Shown here in pieces: positions 3,901-22,969 of a DNA stretch of 38,221 bases (position 1 is the stretch's first letter; each line of letters begins with the position of its first letter). Where the stretch lies: positions 1 to 38,221 of IMG/VR virus record IMGVR_UViG_3300044960_000301, one strand, 5' to 3'. Source of the DNA: a virus. The position numbers were made by a program, and so were the translations under genes. The notes under the pieces are model-generated. The model made no database searches. It was not told the origin of the DNA and saw only the letters and a program-made list of their open reading frames with translations.

Positions 3901-4022
3901 ATGAGCATCACGATCCAGACCGCTCAGACAGCATGACGATAGAGATACCAGGCGTCTGCATCATCCCATCCCCAATGCCCGATCAGGGAGAAGGAGCAGG
4001 ACCATGCGAGGAGTGGAGATAG
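3901..4022 (+). other. Two overlapping mini-ORFs, possibly a degenerate gene remnant
   Basis: ATG 3901 opens an 11-codon frame reading MSITIQTAQTA, which closely resembles the start of the downstream gene at 4078 (MNISIQTEG). Its stop overlaps a second ATG at 3933, which opens a 29-codon frame ending at 4022. The resemblance suggests a truncated duplicate. Either frame could also be an expressed micropeptide, but the evidence is slight. Confidence 0.25.
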
Positions 4023-7072: not shown

Positions 7073-7305
7073 GCATGCAGCCATTCTACTCGTTGCAGAT
7101 TAGCGCGTCTGATGGTTCGTTCAACATCGAGAGCTGGCACGACGCGGAAAAGATAGTGGTGCGCGTGACCTGCGCGCTCTGTCACAAGGAAATCACCATC
7201 GAGGAACATGTCCTCCGTTCTCCACAGACCGCAATCGAACGCCAGGTGGAGGACTGCGCGAGACTCGGACGCGAGATATTGTCGAGATATATTTGCGGTC
7301 ATTAA
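7069..7305 (+). CDS. Small protein of unknown function in the ATPase operon
   Basis: The gene overlaps the ATPase stop by ATGA (78 aa), with GGAGGGTG upstream. ATG 7075 two codons later is an alternative start. It contains a single CALCHKE motif near residue 35, a knuckle that could hold half a metal site, and a helical C-terminus (AIERQVEDCARLGREIL). I recognise no family. Translational coupling to the ATPase suggests a linked function. Confidence 0.6.
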   Translation: MSMQPFYSLQISASDGSFNIESWHDAEKIVVRVTCALCHKEITIEEHVLRSPQTAIERQVEDCARLGREILSRYICGH

Positions 7306-7319
7306 CCAGGAGGCAGACG

Positions 7320-9114: not shown

Positions 9115-9140
9115 GGGCAGGAGCCGTTCAGCTCCTGCCC
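9115..9140 (+). promoter_or_regulatory. Perfect 10-bp hairpin after the zinc-finger gene
   Basis: GGGCAGGAGC (9115-9124) pairs perfectly with GCTCCTGCCC (9131-9140) around a six-base loop. It begins seven bases after the stop of the zinc-finger gene. No T-run follows, so it is either a weak terminator or an mRNA 3'-end stabiliser. Confidence 0.5.
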
Positions 9141-9165
9141 TCACCCAACCAAGGAGAGGTGTGCC

Positions 9166-9255
9166 GTGCGACGCGGCGCACCCAACCCAACCGTTGCCAA
9201 TGATATACCAAGCAACACAAAAAAGCAAGAGAAAGGGGCAACGTATGGGTGCTAA
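9166..9255 (+). CDS. Possible 29-residue micropeptide gene
   Basis: GTG 9166 lies five bases after AAGGAGAGGT and opens a 29-codon frame that overlaps the next gene by 11 bases. The peptide begins MRRGAPNPTVAND and ends KKQEKGATYGC. The Shine-Dalgarno is as good as that of real neighbours, but length and composition give no further support. Confidence 0.3.
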   Translation: MRRGAPNPTVANDIPSNTKKQEKGATYGC

Positions 9256-9526: not shown

Positions 9527-10499
9527 TGTCGGCGCCATCTTCGGTCTCAATAAATGGAAGAGCCTGGCGCGGCTCTGGCTGGAGAAAACGGGTCGGCTCT
9601 CGGAGAGCGAGGCGAGCGCAGAGACCGAGATGATGGAGTGGGGGCGCTATTTGGAGGCGCCCATCGCGCGGAAGTATAGCGAACGGACCGGGAGGCGCAT
9701 TGTGCGGCCACGGGCGATGTGCGTGCATCCGGACTATCCGTTCATGGTCGGACATCCCGACCGCTTTCAATTCGACGCGACCCGGCCGAAGAAGACACGC
9801 CGTGGTGTGCTCGAAGTGAAGCAGGCCGTGTTCGGCAAATTGCGAGACTGGAGCCAGCAGGGTGTGCCGGCTCAGTACTACTTGCAGCTCCAGCACTATC
9901 TCGCCATCACGGGATTGCAGTGGGGGAGCTTTGCCGTCCTGTTCGGCGGGAGCAAGTTGGTGTACTTTGACATCCTGCGCGACGACAAATTGATTGCGTT
10001 GATGATTGAGCGCGAGCGCGAGTTCTGGGAGTACGTGCAGCGCGATATTCCGCCACCGATGGAGCTGGGCATGGCACTGAACGAGGAGCTGGTCAATTAT
10101 TTTCCAAAGGCCAGCCGTGTCGAGCCGCTCGACCTATCGAATGTGCCAGAAGCCTACGGTCGCGGATTTCAACTGCTCCGCTATAAGAGGCTGCACAAAT
10201 CACTCACCGAGAAAATCGCCGAGCACGAGTGCTGGTTTAAGCTCCAGATGTCCGAGTATGCTGAGGCGCGTGTCGGCTCCGCCATTCGAGTGACATGGAC
10301 GCCAGGCGAGCGAAAGAGCATCAACCTGGACAAGCTCAGGCGAGACTATCCCGAGCTCGCAAAGGCGCTGACGGAGACGAAGCCGATGCGACGCTTCAGC
10401 ATTATGGCGCTCGAAGAGATACCAGAGGACGAGCAGGACGAGGAGTCCGCCCTGGAGTCCTCGTTGATTGTCAGTGCGCGACGGATCGAGCTGGAGTGA
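9471..10499 (+). CDS. YqaJ-type viral recombinase exonuclease
   Basis: GTG 9471 with AAGGAGG upstream; 342 aa. The PD-(D/E)XK nuclease motifs of the YqaJ/lambda-exonuclease family are visible: GIGGSDVGAIFG (14-25), E62 in GRYLEAPIA, D97 in GHPDRF, E115-x-K117 in LEVKQA, and QYYLQLQHYLAI (135-146). These enzymes digest one strand of double-stranded DNA to give 3' single-stranded tails for annealing-type recombination. Residues beyond about 220 form a helical C-terminal extension. The next gene is its likely annealing partner, giving a two-gene recombination operon. Confidence 0.85.
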   Translation: MANQSRLLEERQRGIGGSDVGAIFGLNKWKSLARLWLEKTGRLSESEASAETEMMEWGRYLEAPIARKYSERTGRRIVRPRAMCVHPDYPFMVGHPDRFQFDATRPKKTRRGVLEVKQAVFGKLRDWSQQGVPAQYYLQLQHYLAITGLQWGSFAVLFGGSKLVYFDILRDDKLIALMIEREREFWEYVQRDIPPPMELGMALNEELVNYFPKASRVEPLDLSNVPEAYGRGFQLLRYKRLHKSLTEKIAEHECWFKLQMSEYAEARVGSAIRVTWTPGERKSINLDKLRRDYPELAKALTETKPMRRFSIMALEEIPEDEQDEESALESSLIVSARRIELE

Positions 10500-10538: not shown

Positions 10539-11852
10539 ATGACACAAGAAGTCACAACAACGGGGTTCTCACAACTCAGTCTAGAGAAGAGCGCAGAACT
10601 GGCGGCGATTGCCGTGGCCGCAGCGGCGAAGGCCGAAGTCGAGTCGGCCTATGTCATGGCGGAGCGGCACCCGAGGAATGAGGAGGAGGCACGCGCCCGG
10701 ATCAAACGTGCGTGCATGGATCCGCTCTTTGCCAAGAAGGCGCGATACCAGAAGCCCGTCGGGACGAAACTCGTGAATGGCCGATGGGAAAAGCAATATG
10801 TGGTTGGACCATCCATTCGCTTCGCGGAGGAAATGTTGCGGAGCTGGCGCAATGTGCTCACACAGCAGACGACCATTTACGATGATGCGACCAAGCGCGT
10901 CGTGAAAATCACGGTCAGAGACCTCGAAGCCAACGTCAGTTACTCCAAGGAAATCCTGCTAGAGAAAACCGTTGAGCGGCGGAGTGGAAAGGACCGGCAG
11001 GTCCTCGGACAGCGGAAGAACAGCGATGGCGTGGACGTCTATATCGTGGTGGCAACGGAGGACGAGCTCGCGATGAAAGAGGCGGCGCAAGCCTCGAAAA
11101 TCATCAGGAACAATGGGTTGCGCTTCATTCCTCAGCACATCATCGACGAGGCTCTCATGGAAGTCGACCGTGTGCTCCGGGAAAAGATCGCGAAAGACCC
11201 CGACGCTGAACGGCGAGAACTTGTCGATGGCTTCATGCGCCGTGGTATCACCGTCCCCCAGCTGGAGGGATATACCGGATCGCCCGTCGCGCAATGGTCT
11301 GTCGACCAGATGGCTGAGCTGCGCGATATCCTGACCAGTATTGAAGACGGACACGCAACCTGGCAGGAATTCGTGGAGGCCTCGAAGGAGCAGCAGCTCG
11401 CGCAGAAGAGCCAGGTGGAGACGAAGGGTGCCGAGATTGCGAGGGCGGCTGAGCAACCACACAAAGTCGCCATGCCGCCCGCGCAGCCCAAAGAGCCGGC
11501 GAAAGCGACGAAGAAGAAGGAGCCGCAGACCGATGACGCGAAGCCAGAAGAGCACACTCCGACAGCGGAGGAGGAACGTGGGCAGACGCAACCCTCAACA
11601 CCTGAGCCAGCAGCGCCGAAAGACGCCGCACTGCACGTCGCCGAGCAAGTGAGCCAGATCGAGGCGGAATTGATGGGGTCATCAGAGGGCCTGAAAGCTT
11701 ACCGGCAGCTCTGGACGTATTTCCGTCTTCCGCAGGAGGGATTTGGAAAGAATGGCGCAGGAAAGTATCTTCTACCGCAACAGCTCCCGTTTTTCCTCCG
11801 TCAAATTGAGAAAGCTCTGAACGAGGTTCGACAAAAGGACAGGAAGTCATAA
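10539..11852 (+). CDS. Putative single-strand annealing partner of YqaJ nuclease
   Basis: ATG 10539 with GAGGAGGG upstream; 437 aa. Residues about 40-290 match a family common in phage recombination regions: GPSIRFAEEMLRSWRN, VKITVRDLEANVSYSKE, EKTVERR, YIVVATEDELAMKEAA, ASKIIRNNGLR. I recall this family only as a recombination-linked protein of unproven fold. A disordered Pro/Glu/Lys-rich linker (about 300-370) leads to a C-terminal domain of 65 residues, probably a protein-interaction tail. Pairing with an exonuclease suggests a RecT/Erf-like role, but this is inference from context. Confidence 0.55.
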   Translation: MTQEVTTTGFSQLSLEKSAELAAIAVAAAAKAEVESAYVMAERHPRNEEEARARIKRACMDPLFAKKARYQKPVGTKLVNGRWEKQYVVGPSIRFAEEMLRSWRNVLTQQTTIYDDATKRVVKITVRDLEANVSYSKEILLEKTVERRSGKDRQVLGQRKNSDGVDVYIVVATEDELAMKEAAQASKIIRNNGLRFIPQHIIDEALMEVDRVLREKIAKDPDAERRELVDGFMRRGITVPQLEGYTGSPVAQWSVDQMAELRDILTSIEDGHATWQEFVEASKEQQLAQKSQVETKGAEIARAAEQPHKVAMPPAQPKEPAKATKKKEPQTDDAKPEEHTPTAEEERGQTQPSTPEPAAPKDAALHVAEQVSQIEAELMGSSEGLKAYRQLWTYFRLPQEGFGKNGAGKYLLPQQLPFFLRQIEKALNEVRQKDRKS

Positions 11853-19218: not shown

Positions 19219-19673
19219 GTGCAAAGAAAACTGCCGAGCAGAAGAAGCTGGAAGGGAATAGGGGCAAGCGACCGATTGCACCAGAATCGGTGCTTGAAAT
19301 CGGCGCGCCCGATCCGCCGCCGAGCATGAAGGGCGAAGCACTGCAGCACTGGCGATATTTGTGCGACATCATGCTGTCTATGCGCACATTGACGAAGGCA
19401 CACATGGGCATTCTGATCTTGGCGTGCAATAGCTATGCACAGATGATGCAGTTGGAGCGCGCGATCGCGAAGAAGAAGAGCCTGGTGTATCGACAGAAGG
19501 GCAGCATGGGGCAGCCGGTGGAAAAGCGCGTGATGGAGTTCGATTTACTGACGGCCGTGCGGAAGGATTACAGACGGTGCCTGGTCGAGCTGGGATTGAC
19601 GCCGACCAGTTCGCACCGCGCGAAGGTCATGCCGCAATCGACGAGAGATGGCGTCGGTGAATTCTTTAACTGA
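19215..19673 (+). CDS. terS: Terminase small subunit, P27 family
   Basis: GTG 19215 overlaps the cupin stop as GTGA; 152 aa. The start KKTAEQKKLEGNRGKRPI followed by an E-x-G-APDPP segment is the hallmark of P27-type small terminases. A helical domain follows (LCDIMLSMRTLTKAHMGILI, AVRKDYRRCLVELGLTPTSS). TerS recognises phage DNA and feeds it to TerL, whose gene starts within its last 26 bases. Confidence 0.9.
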   Translation: MSAKKTAEQKKLEGNRGKRPIAPESVLEIGAPDPPPSMKGEALQHWRYLCDIMLSMRTLTKAHMGILILACNSYAQMMQLERAIAKKKSLVYRQKGSMGQPVEKRVMEFDLLTAVRKDYRRCLVELGLTPTSSHRAKVMPQSTRDGVGEFFN

Positions 19674-21402
19674 GCGGTTCGCCCAAGCGTCCGTGGATGA
19701 GTACGTCGATGGCGTCCTGAGTGGGCGCATTGTGACGGGACGCCTCGTGCGCCTGGCCGTCGAGCGCTACGTGCGCGACCTCGACGCCAGTGGCGACCGC
19801 GGCCTCTTCTTTGACGTCAAGAAAGCGGAAAAGGCCACGCGCTTCTTCCGCTACTTGAAGCACAGTAAAGGGGAGTGGGCGGGCAAGGAGCTGGTGCTCT
19901 CACCTTGGCAGCAGTTCGTCAACTGGAATCTATTCGGCTGGTATCGCGAGACGGCAGAAGGGCCACGCCGCCGCTTCAAGAAAGTCTATGCGGAGGTGGC
20001 ACGCAAGAATGGCAAGAGTACGTGGGCGGCGGGGATCGGCCTCTATCTGGCGTTCGCTGACGACGAGGCGGGTGCGGAAGTGTATGCCGCGGCGACGAAA
20101 AAAGACCAGGCGAGGATTGTGCACGGTGAAGCGATGCGCATGGTCAAGGCGTCGCCGTCGTTGCTCTCCTATCTGACCTGTATGAAGGATGTCATCGTGC
20201 GTGACTCGCGCCACCAGAAATTTGAGCCGCTCGGTGCCGACGAGGATACGATGGACGGGCTCAATGTGCACGGCGCGATTATCGACGAGGTGCACGCGCA
20301 CAAGCATTACGGCGTCTGGGATAAAATCGAAACGGCCATCGGTGCACGGCGCAATCCGGTCATCTTCGCCATTACCACGGCGGGGTTCGACCGCGCCACG
20401 CTGTGCTGGGCGCTACACGAGTATGCTGAGCAGATTCTCAACGGCAATGTCCAGGATGAGTCCTTTCTTGCCTATATTGCGACGCTCGATGTGGGCGACT
20501 CCTGGCAAGATCCGGAAGTGTGGATTAAGTCCAACCCGAATCTGGGCGTGTCGGTCAAGGTCGAGCAGCTCTCGGAGCTGGCACAAAAGGCGGAGCGGCT
20601 GCCCGGATTCCAGAATTCCTTTCTTCGTCTGCACCTCAACGTCTGGACGCAGCAGATCAAGCGGTGGATTGACATGGATTTGTGGGACGAGAATGCGGGC
20701 GCGCCGGTTCTGGACCAAGAATTCCTTGGGCGAGCGTGCTATGGCGGGCTGGATTTATCGAGCGTGTCGGATATCACAGCCTATGTGCTCGGCTTTGAAG
20801 ATCCGTTTGACGAGGACTTGTTCACCGTGCGCTGCCAATTCTGGTGCCCTGAGGCGCGACTCTACGACGAGACCAACAAATACCGCGAGCAGTATCAGGC
20901 GTGGCACGCACAGGGTTTATTGAAGATCACGCCAGGTAATGCCATTGATTATGAGTTCATCAAGGCGGAAATCCTGGCAAGCGCGGCGAAGTTCGAGGTC
21001 CGCGAGTTGGCCGTGGACCGACTGTTCCAGGGCTATCACTTGAGCATGCAACTGATGGATGAGGGGATGGTCGTCGTGGGGATGGGCATGGGCTTTCTCA
21101 GCATGGCCGGCCCCATGCGGGAACTAGAGAGACTGCTGCTCCTCAGAAAGCTCCGCCATGGCGGGCACCCGATTCTGCGATGGATGGCGAGCAACTGCGC
21201 GGTGAGGGAAGACCCGGCAGGCAATCTGAAGCCGGACAAGGCTGAAAGTCAAGGGAAAATTGACGGCATCATTGGCATCCTTTGCGCGCTGGATCGCAAA
21301 ATACGTGGTGGCAATCGTCAGTCGATTTATGAGACGCGTGGTCTGCTGGCAATGGGCAAGACGAAGAACGACAAGGAGGGCGGGGAGAATGGCAAAAACT
21401 GA
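19648..21402 (+). CDS. terL: Terminase large subunit
   Basis: 584 aa, start at ATG 19648 inside the end of terS. The ATPase domain has LSPWQQFVNW as adenine motif, Walker A ARKNGKST (118-125) and Walker B GAIIDEVHAH (D213, E214), with a TTAG coupling motif (ITTAGFD). The RNase H-like nuclease domain has GGLDLSSVSDITAY (D369), AVDRLFQGY (near 457) and KIDGI (near 539). It belongs to the HK97-like P27-associated group. It cuts and pumps DNA into the prohead. The end overlaps the next small gene by 14 bases. Confidence 0.95.
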   Translation: MASVNSLTERFAQASVDEYVDGVLSGRIVTGRLVRLAVERYVRDLDASGDRGLFFDVKKAEKATRFFRYLKHSKGEWAGKELVLSPWQQFVNWNLFGWYRETAEGPRRRFKKVYAEVARKNGKSTWAAGIGLYLAFADDEAGAEVYAAATKKDQARIVHGEAMRMVKASPSLLSYLTCMKDVIVRDSRHQKFEPLGADEDTMDGLNVHGAIIDEVHAHKHYGVWDKIETAIGARRNPVIFAITTAGFDRATLCWALHEYAEQILNGNVQDESFLAYIATLDVGDSWQDPEVWIKSNPNLGVSVKVEQLSELAQKAERLPGFQNSFLRLHLNVWTQQIKRWIDMDLWDENAGAPVLDQEFLGRACYGGLDLSSVSDITAYVLGFEDPFDEDLFTVRCQFWCPEARLYDETNKYREQYQAWHAQGLLKITPGNAIDYEFIKAEILASAAKFEVRELAVDRLFQGYHLSMQLMDEGMVVVGMGMGFLSMAGPMRELERLLLLRKLRHGGHPILRWMASNCAVREDPAGNLKPDKAESQGKIDGIIGILCALDRKIRGGNRQSIYETRGLLAMGKTKNDKEGGENGKN

Positions 21403-21577
21403 CGACCTGCTGCGCGAGGACGCAGAGGCAGAACTGACGAAGCTCCTTCGTCATGGCTATGGCATCTTGACAATCAAGATTCACGGGCATAAGATTACAG
21501 CACTCGATTGCCTAACTCGCAAAACGAGACGGGCACGAGCGGATGACGCTAGTCTTCCCCGCGTGTGCGGGGATTGA
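21389..21577 (+). CDS. DUF2292-like small protein whose 3' end overlaps a CRISPR-type repeat
   Basis: ATG 21389 with GGAGGG eight bases upstream; 62 aa. The core LLRHGYGILTIKIHGHKITALD followed by RKTR resembles DUF2292, a small domain with a YGxxxIxxxxGKI pattern. The last eight codons and the TGA stop (21575-21577) are provided by a CRISPR-like repeat (21552-21580), so the present C-terminus (ASLPRVCGD) was probably created when the repeat arrived. A promoter lies inside the coding region (21467-21495). Confidence 0.6.
   Translation: MAKTDDLLREDAEAELTKLLRHGYGILTIKIHGHKITALDCLTRKTRRARADDASLPRVCGD
21467..21495 (+). promoter_or_regulatory. Consensus-like sigma70 promoter upstream of the solitary CRISPR repeat
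   Basis: A perfect -35 TTGACA (21467-21472) is followed by exactly 17 bases and TAAGAT (21490-21495), a -10 with four of six matches including the key first, second and last positions. Transcription should start near 21502, about 50 bases before the repeat. It lies inside a small gene, which is unusual for a phage late region and suggests a dedicated transcript. Confidence 0.6.
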
Positions 21578-21580
21578 CAC
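21552..21580 (+). CRISPR. Solitary type I-E-like CRISPR repeat (29 nt)
   Basis: The 29-nt sequence begins GTCTTCCCCGC and ends GCGGGGATTGACAC, with GTGT between. TCCCCGC (21556-21562) pairs with GCGGGGA (21567-21573) around a GTGT tetraloop, giving the 7-bp stem-loop that Cas6e recognises. Cutting after the stem would leave the 8-nt handle ATTGACAC (21573-21580), comparable to ATAAACCG of E. coli. Length, stem, loop size and handle all fit type I-E repeats. Only one copy was found by eye, so it is not an array. Confidence 0.8.
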
Positions 21581-21603
21581 TGACGGCCAACCGGCACCAA
21601 CGG

Positions 21604-21653
21604 AAGCCGTCGCAGAGGAGAGATTCCAACTCTTCCTTTGCGACGGCTTTTTT
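21604..21653 (+). terminator. Strong intrinsic terminator ending the repeat transcript
   Basis: AAGCCGTCGCA (21604-21614) pairs with TGCGACGGCTT (21639-21649). The stem continues with AGGAGAG against CTCTTCCT with one bulged T, closing on a short loop. Six T residues (21648-21653) follow. This is the best intrinsic terminator in the window. It ends only six bases before the portal start codon. Confidence 0.9.
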
Positions 21654-21658
21654 CGTGT

Positions 21659-22969
21659 ATGCGCCTACTTGAGTTCTTCGCACGCAAGAAGCCTGCGGAT
21701 CAGAGGCCAGTCATCGCGAATGCGTCGCCCGAGAATCCGTCCACGAATCTGGGCAGTCCGGCGTCTTGGCTGGTCGATTTCTTTCACGGCGGCCCCACAC
21801 AGGCAGGCAGGTTCGTCAATTCCGAAACGGCCATGCGGACGAGCGCCGTCTACGCCTGCGTCACGCTGATCGCACAAACCATTGCCAGTCTGCCGCTGAA
21901 AGTCTACCGGCGCGTCGACGGCGATGCGGTTGAGGTGCCGGATCATCCTGCCTACTACTTGCTCCACGACGAGCCCAATCCGGCCATGACGAGCACGGTG
22001 TGGCGCGAATTCCTGGTTGCCAATCTCCTGCTCGGGGGCAATGCATATGCGGCCATAGGACGGACGAAGGGCGGCACGCTGCTGGACCTGTTTCCCATCC
22101 CCTACAGCTATGTGCATCCACGCCGTGTCAACGGCCGCAACCTTTACAAGGTCGATCTCCCTGGCGGTGGCTCTGAGCTGCTGGACCAGAGCGACATGTT
22201 GCACATCCCTGGATTGAGCTTTGATGGGCTCACCGGCCTCTCGGTCATTAGCCACGCGGCACGTGAAGCCGTTGGCCTGGCGCTGGCAACCGAAGAGCAC
22301 GGCGGGCGTGTCTTTAGCAATGGTGCGAGCCTCAAGACCGTCCTGAAGCATCCCAAAAACATCAGCAAGCCCGCGCAAGACCGGCTCAGGACGCAGTTTG
22401 AGGAGCAACACGCTGGGCTCTCGAATGCCGCCAAAACGCTGTTGCTGGAGGAGGGCATGGACGTCTCGGTCGTGAGTATGACGATGGAGGACGCGCAATA
22501 TCTGGAGACGCGGCGATTTCAGGTGGAGGACATTGCGCGGTTCTTCCGCGTGCCGCCTCATTTGATCGGTCACACCGATAAGCAAACCAGTTGGGGGTCC
22601 GGCATCGAGCAGATGTTGCTGGGTTTCCTAACCTTCACCCTCGTGCCCTGGCTCGTGCGCTTCGAGCAGGAATTCAACCGGAAACTGTTTCCGCGCTCGC
22701 CATTCTATGCGCAATTCAAGACACAGGGGCTCCTCCGCGGCGATTCCCAGGCACGCGCGGCCTACTATGCCAGCGGTCATCAACACGGTTGGCTGTCCAT
22801 CAATGAAATTCGCGCTGCGGAAGACATGAACAGAATACCGGGAGGCGACCGGTACTTTATCAACGCGAATCTCGTGCCGCTGGAACGCGCAGGCGAAGCC
22901 TTCCAGTCACGCGGGGTGGCGCCCACTACCGCTGACACTGTATCGGCAAGCGAAGGAGAGAACCCATGA
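21659..22969 (+). CDS. Portal protein, HK97 family
   Basis: ATG 21659 gives 436 aa with a typical RLLEFFARKK start. Family features include AVYACVTLIAQTIASLPLKVY, DHPAYYLLHDEPNP, FLVANLLLGGNAYA, HIPGLSFDGLTG, and FQVEDIARFFRVPPHLIG near 300. Twelve copies would form the DNA channel and head-tail vertex. Unlike almost every other gene here it has no Shine-Dalgarno; the six bases before it directly follow the terminator T-run. It must be expressed by readthrough or antitermination, or from a weak leaderless-like start. Confidence 0.95.
   Translation: MRLLEFFARKKPADQRPVIANASPENPSTNLGSPASWLVDFFHGGPTQAGRFVNSETAMRTSAVYACVTLIAQTIASLPLKVYRRVDGDAVEVPDHPAYYLLHDEPNPAMTSTVWREFLVANLLLGGNAYAAIGRTKGGTLLDLFPIPYSYVHPRRVNGRNLYKVDLPGGGSELLDQSDMLHIPGLSFDGLTGLSVISHAAREAVGLALATEEHGGRVFSNGASLKTVLKHPKNISKPAQDRLRTQFEEQHAGLSNAAKTLLLEEGMDVSVVSMTMEDAQYLETRRFQVEDIARFFRVPPHLIGHTDKQTSWGSGIEQMLLGFLTFTLVPWLVRFEQEFNRKLFPRSPFYAQFKTQGLLRGDSQARAAYYASGHQHGWLSINEIRAAEDMNRIPGGDRYFINANLVPLERAGEAFQSRGVAPTTADTVSASEGENP

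Follow-up and report, generated by a model that had tools for sequence, protein, structure and literature searches.

Why does a tailed phage carry a single CRISPR repeat between its terminase and portal genes? The window, i.e. the whole stretch of DNA analysed here, is a 38,221-base tailed-phage record with terS, terL, portal, head, tail and replication genes. Its terL–portal gap holds a lone hairpin that resembles the repeats of type I-E CRISPR arrays. Solitary repeat units acting as RNA anti-CRISPRs (Racrs) form an established class, for which 2,103 viral units have been reported (PMC10651486). The sequence-only reading had proposed the hairpin as a probable member of this class.

A lone repeat at the end of a small phage gene

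The element, GTCTTCCCCGCGTGTGCGGGGATTGACAC, is a solitary type I-E-like CRISPR repeat, a 29-mer at 21552–21580 on the + strand of the terL–portal gap. It has a 7-bp stem, TCCCCGC/GCGGGGA (21556–21562 and 21567–21573, + strand), and the four-nucleotide loop GTGT (21563–21566, + strand) between the stem arms, the hairpin spanning 21556–21573. The Cas6e cut, placed as in other I-E repeats, is predicted between 21572 and 21573 of the + strand, and 3′ of it stands an 8-nt 5′-handle-like segment, ATTGACAC (21573–21580, + strand). The counterparts of this handle are ATCGACCC in L002, a sister phage, and ATCGACC in the repeat of the bacterium Silanimonas. The features of the I-E repeat family are present, i.e. 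a length of ~28–29 nt, a GC-rich stem of 7 bp, a four-nucleotide loop and an 8-nt post-cut handle. The folding energy of the 29-mer is −18.1 kcal/mol (z −5.0).

We observed no other site within three mismatches of the repeat in the window (expectation 0.00), and neither the window nor L002 has a second full or partial repeat. Among the window ORFs that were scanned, a subset of all its ORFs, we recognised no Cas protein. Two features of a solitary repeat unit, no second repeat and no cas genes nearby, are thus present, the latter as judged from that subset. The earlier description of a single 29-nt repeat with its stem, four-base loop and 8-nt handle was accurate, and the absence of a second repeat and, among the scanned ORFs, of cas genes was confirmed. 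Searching Rfam at the gathering and at permissive thresholds gave no match; a real array used as a control also gave no CRISPR family, which makes this result uninformative.

The repeat is not purely intergenic. Between terL (19648–21402, + strand) and the portal gene (21659–22969, + strand; Phage_portal, E 2e-111 for the product scanned from TTG 21638) lies ORF62, which encodes a small protein of 62 aa (21389–21577, + strand) and overlaps the end of terL. The final codons and the stop of ORF62 fall within the repeat, with the TGA (21575–21577) inside the handle, and the repeat-bearing region encodes the C-terminal residues ASLPRVCGD. The promoter-like sequence described below lies within the same ORF. 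ORF62 is conserved in L002 (87%) and in another close relative, L003 (74%). In L002, its frame continues across the repeat to a later stop, and in L003 the homologue ends without any repeat. The element is thus not intergenic in the sense of the published genome-wide search for solitary repeats, which masks ORFs (PMC10651486); this masking, applied to ORFs of at least 80% confidence, is a search filter and not a functional requirement.

ORF62 has no family above the cut-off in Pfam, PHROGs, NCBIfam or PADLOC; a weak resemblance to DUF2292 was seen for the L003 homologue (E 0.057, below the cut-off). We considered ORF62 as a known Acr and rejected this, as it has no family match and its fold model is weak (pLDDT 63.7). 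This low-confidence model comprises a helix and two strands, and the repeat-coded C-terminal tail (pLDDT < 50) is predicted to be disordered. No known acr or aca genes were recognised near the repeat.

Relationship to bacterial type I-E repeats and to sister phages

The nearest sister phage, L002 (identical to L009 and L013; TerL 91%), has a homologous hairpin at the equivalent terL–portal site. This copy, TCTTCCCCGCGCACGCGGGGATCGACC, differs from that of the window in its loop and is identical over 27 nt to a repeat at the edge of a Silanimonas lenta contig. When 84,980 species genomes were scanned with TCTTCCCCGCGNNNGCGGGGATYGAC, this contig end was the single site returned. The window's own repeat had no exact match in these 84,980 genomes, the sole match being the Silanimonas variant, and a sample of 369 genomes from the class had nothing within three mismatches of the 26-mer CTTCCCCGCGTGTGCGGGGATTGACA.

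An array of the near-identical GTCTCCCCCGCGCACGCGGGGATCGACC, which has a 61-nt period, forms the end of another contig of this S. lenta genome and adjoins a I-E cas operon (cas3, cse2, cas7e, cas5e, cas6e and cas1); a 632-aa gene without a Pfam match occupies the cse1 position between cas3 and cse2. In S. lenta, the repeat thus belongs to an array with cas genes and is not solitary as in the window. The window site matches the S. lenta contig-edge repeat at 23/28 positions, compared with no more than 18 in the rest of the window, and with a mean score of 18.75 and a maximum of 22 in 60 simulated sequences. Of two other genomes in the S. lenta family, one shares the S. lenta repeat and has a cas6e, and the other has 87 repeats that differ in the loop. 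One genome of this bacterial family, where no cas6e was found, has a solitary I-E-like hairpin, CATCCCCGCGCGTGCGGGGATCGAC (L024; G123 C26:72908-72932).

Among the best relatives listed for the window repeat (25/28 and 24/28), the 25/28 matches are repeats on an Acetobacter pasteurianus plasmid, whose first 21 nt are identical to those of the window, an identity that reaches up to the predicted Cas6e cut. A sister A. pasteurianus plasmid with similar repeats has a full annotated I-E operon, cas3-casABCDE-cas1e-cas2e. SRUFinder, the published tool for such elements, demands ≥90% identity across ≥90% of a known repeat and a bit score of at least 41.1; our best single repeat copy gave 25/27 (92.6%) and 41 bits, in a BLAST setting other than that of SRUFinder. 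Two other sequences resembling the repeat core are not repeats and were set aside: the one in Escherichia phage atuna is a terminator, and the one in Streptomyces phage Bogota is a coding stretch.

The search of bacterial genomes that the sequence-only reading had proposed thus returned relatives of I-E type (25/28 in Acetobacter, 23/28 in Silanimonas) and no exact match in the 84,980 species genomes. Since L002 shares 27 nt with the repeat of a genome having I-E cas genes and the window shares 21 nt with the Acetobacter plasmid repeats, the origin of the phage element from a CRISPR repeat of type I-E, as first proposed, is well supported by these sequences.

We compared the two phage copies with each other. 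All 17 aligned positions of the stem region are unchanged (17/17), while only one of four loop positions is identical and the bases before it (10 nt) agree in 7/14 columns; the background identity of the two phages is 87% in terL and portal. This pattern points to a stem maintained between the window and L002, although with two sequences, 17 unchanged bases alone are not significant at 87%. The loops are GCAC in L002 and GTGT in the window, and each form matches the repeats of different bacteria.

The repeat is known from these two phages only; L003 lacks it, and no repeat was found in the terL–portal gap of more distant relatives. In six of these (L047, L049, L050, L052, L053 and L055) the gap holds small helix-turn-helix genes, and in L004–L006 it is empty. 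Across the genomes compared, the gap is therefore a variable site. The gap gene upstream of the portal gene in the six relatives is excisionase/MerR-like, and several of them have short repeats such as GCGACAAAC/ACGACAAACC just before the portal gene, which suggests a regulated accessory site.

A candidate decoy RNA and its alternatives

A promoter-like sequence, TTGACA-17-TAAGAT (21467–21495, + strand), recognised by its match to the consensus, lies inside ORF62 and within the 250 bp upstream of the repeat in which a Racr promoter is expected, with a predicted start at ~A21502. Its hexamers are identical in L002, and the repeat-less L003 has TTGACA...TAGGAT. The TTG and ACA codons of this site are uncommon in the phage (14% of Leu and 10% of Thr), and this codon usage hints at a kept promoter. 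Downstream of the repeat, a long intrinsic-terminator hairpin followed by a T6 run (~21602–21653, + strand) is present in the window, L002 and L003 with compensatory pairs; it was absent from the output of a simple terminator scan. The portal ATG (21659) stands almost directly 3′ of the strong T-run of this terminator, and no obvious ribosome-binding site is seen in 21602–21661.

The repeat had been credited with its own promoter and terminator. Both sequences were indeed found, but neither is exclusive to the repeat: the repeat-less L003 has them as well, so that they either predate the repeat or exist independently of it. Similarly, the segment between repeat and terminator (21581–21601, + strand), earlier read as a 23-nt spacer-like segment, is partly common to L003. 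As L003 has no repeat, this segment is, on such a comparison, inherited phage sequence and not an acquired spacer or guide.

We consider it probable that a solitary I-E repeat from a proteobacterial array was captured into the terL–portal gap and acts there as a Racr against the I-E system of the host. This is the best available reading because the lone repeat lies in a promoter-to-terminator unit and because the predicted Cas6e product has a length like that of the type I-F RacrIF1; the homology to I-E repeats and the unchanged stem beside a diverged loop also support it. For RacrIF1, Cas6f binds and cuts the solitary repeat, giving products of ~70 and 76 nt, and the upstream product carries Cas6f and a Cas7f filament and lacks the 5′ handle needed for Cas5f/Cas8f (PMC10651486). 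In the window, a start at ~A21502 and a cut between 21572 and 21573 would yield an upstream product of ~71 nt (21502–21572, + strand), as predicted from the promoter-like site and the repeat position, and this fits a RacrIF1-type decoy mechanism for Cas6e and Cas7e. On these features, we infer a probable Racr, as the sequence-only reading had done.

In the proposed mechanism, a short RNA from ~21502 to ~21652, and/or the 3′ end of an upstream mRNA, would present the repeat to the host Cas6e, which would bind it and cut between 21572 and 21573. The ~71-nt upstream product, having no crRNA 5′ handle, would retain Cas6e on its 3′ stem-loop. Cas7e could polymerise on this product while Cas5e/Cas8e would not be recruited, and the Cascade subunits would be sequestered away from real crRNAs. 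The downstream segment would have no guide role in such a decoy; for RacrIF1, changes in the downstream handle matter little (PMC10651486). We infer the transcription, the Cas6e cleavage, the Cas7e filament, the inhibition and the host itself.

Several observations were counted against a Racr: no host match, no exact bacterial repeat, the promoter and terminator of L003 without a repeat, and no acr or aca gene nearby. As to the host, the spacers of three cognate arrays gave no match to the window above the control level, and no related portal was found in eight Silanimonas genomes, in a search run without a positive control.

The strongest rivals to a Racr are a reduced mini-array and a neutral insertion. 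In the first, the repeat would be the relic of a phage-borne I-E mini-array that was once used via host Cascade against competing phages and is now down to one repeat, which may or may not retain some function. Arrays of this repeat type do occur in two viral contigs, L012 and L040, and on plasmid pTH1, and competition between viruses via mini-arrays is established (PMC11656645). However, the flanks offer this explanation neither a partial repeat, in the window or in L002, nor any trace of an acquired spacer, the post-repeat sequence being partly shared with L003. The window also falls short of a phage mini-CRISPR array proper, which has at least two repeats around a spacer. We regard such a relic as unlikely, albeit with a real chance.

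The second rival is that a host repeat was copied into the phage by recombination or by off-target Cas1–Cas2 activity and is functionless, its short addition to the C terminus of ORF62 being tolerated. Its presence in only two of the three close relatives and in none of the more distant ones is in keeping with this, as are the replacement of the ORF62 stop region by the repeat and the predicted disorder of the extension. What speaks against it is the intact stem in two phages whose genes differ at 12–13% of sites, with the changes falling mostly in loop, handle and flanks, and the placement within a promoter-to-terminator unit, which favours use. We give a neutral insertion a small chance.

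A cis-acting regulatory hairpin between terL/ORF62 and portal (an attenuator or an element of RNA stability or translation), with a coincidental likeness to a CRISPR repeat, is very unlikely. The hairpin does sit in a transcription-control region, between a promoter-like sequence and a terminator, and similar G+C hairpins elsewhere are terminators, as in Escherichia phage atuna. However, the likeness extends past the stem to TCTT and ATYGAC, the 27-nt identity of the L002 copy with a bacterial repeat nearly excludes coincidence, no T-run follows the repeat hairpin and L003 manages without the repeat.

It is barely credible that the RNA serves as a crRNA-like guide, in which the handle-like ATTGACAC and the short segment after it would sit in host Cascade, with the terminator hairpin as the 3′ end, and repress a partly complementary gene of the host or of a rival: the order of handle, segment and hairpin suits it and Cas-dependent repression by repeat-like RNAs has been mentioned as an alternative function (PMC10651486), but a segment partly common to the repeat-less L003 was not chosen as a guide, and three I-E cas loci, not necessarily those of the host, held no convincing seed (best 9 nt, judged to be chance).

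Comparison with known systems and related arrays

As a Racr, the window element would be a further example in a known class and not a new principle, with a modest twist in its overlap with a coding 3′ end. Two I-E Racrs, RacrIE1 and RacrIE2, were tested by Camara-Wilpert et al. in 2023 (PMC10651486). Like these, the window has a solitary I-E-type repeat on a mobile element, with a promoter-like sequence at most 250 bp upstream and no second repeat; unlike these, its repeat overlaps the 3′ end of a conserved ORF. This comparison was made by description, and the activity of the window element is presumed. With RacrIF1, it shares the predicted product length (~71 nt versus ~70/76 nt) and the expected sequestration of Cas6 and Cas7, whereas subtype and repeat differ and a Cas7e filament is what we would expect here. 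RacrIC1, which is bicistronic and located downstream of acrIC5, resembles the window in that the repeat adjoins the 3′ end of a small phage gene; however, RacrIC1 lies 11 nt downstream, whereas the window repeat covers the last codons and the stop, and ORF62 has no known Acr relative.

This overlap allows a bolder proposal, to which we give an outside chance: the last codons of a conserved small gene would themselves be the Racr, one transcript giving both a protein (perhaps an Acr) and, once cut by Cas6e, a decoy RNA, with loop and handle re-tuned to the host repeat. If this double duty is true, searches confined to intergenic regions would miss a whole class. If functional, the window element adds a I-E Racr from an uncultured phage group. 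It would also be an example of a repeat mimic lodged within the coding 3′ end of a gene, a position masked in the published search, so that the class may be undercounted. The locus also provides a natural comparison set at one site, with two sister phages that have the repeat, with differing loops, and one that lacks it.

Phage mini-CRISPR arrays (PMC11656645), of which L012 may serve as an example, have the same type of repeat on a virus with no cas genes seen nearby; they have two repeats around a spacer, unlike the window with its one repeat and no spacer. L012 (IMGVR 3300002925_000094), a Mu-like viral contig, has a two-repeat I-E mini-array with a 61-nt period and a third lone repeat (9117–9205 and 9742–9769, − strand). 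Its spacer weakly matches a packaging gene of Pseudomonas phage 10P302A (24/27, E 0.4), and a S. lenta spacer (L021, ~11778–11810) matches L012 at 7295–7314 in 19/20 nt, a possible host link for L012. On plasmid pTH1 of Hydrogenophilus thermoluteolus (L111), a two-repeat mini-array at 3942 and 4003, whose repeat is that of Silanimonas, is annotated within a hypothetical protein, with no cas gene among the annotated neighbours. L040 (IMGVR 3300033985_000086), a 42-kb viral contig, has a Silanimonas-type I-E array of five repeats (1657–1928), which adjoins tail-fibre-like and DNA methylase-like genes.
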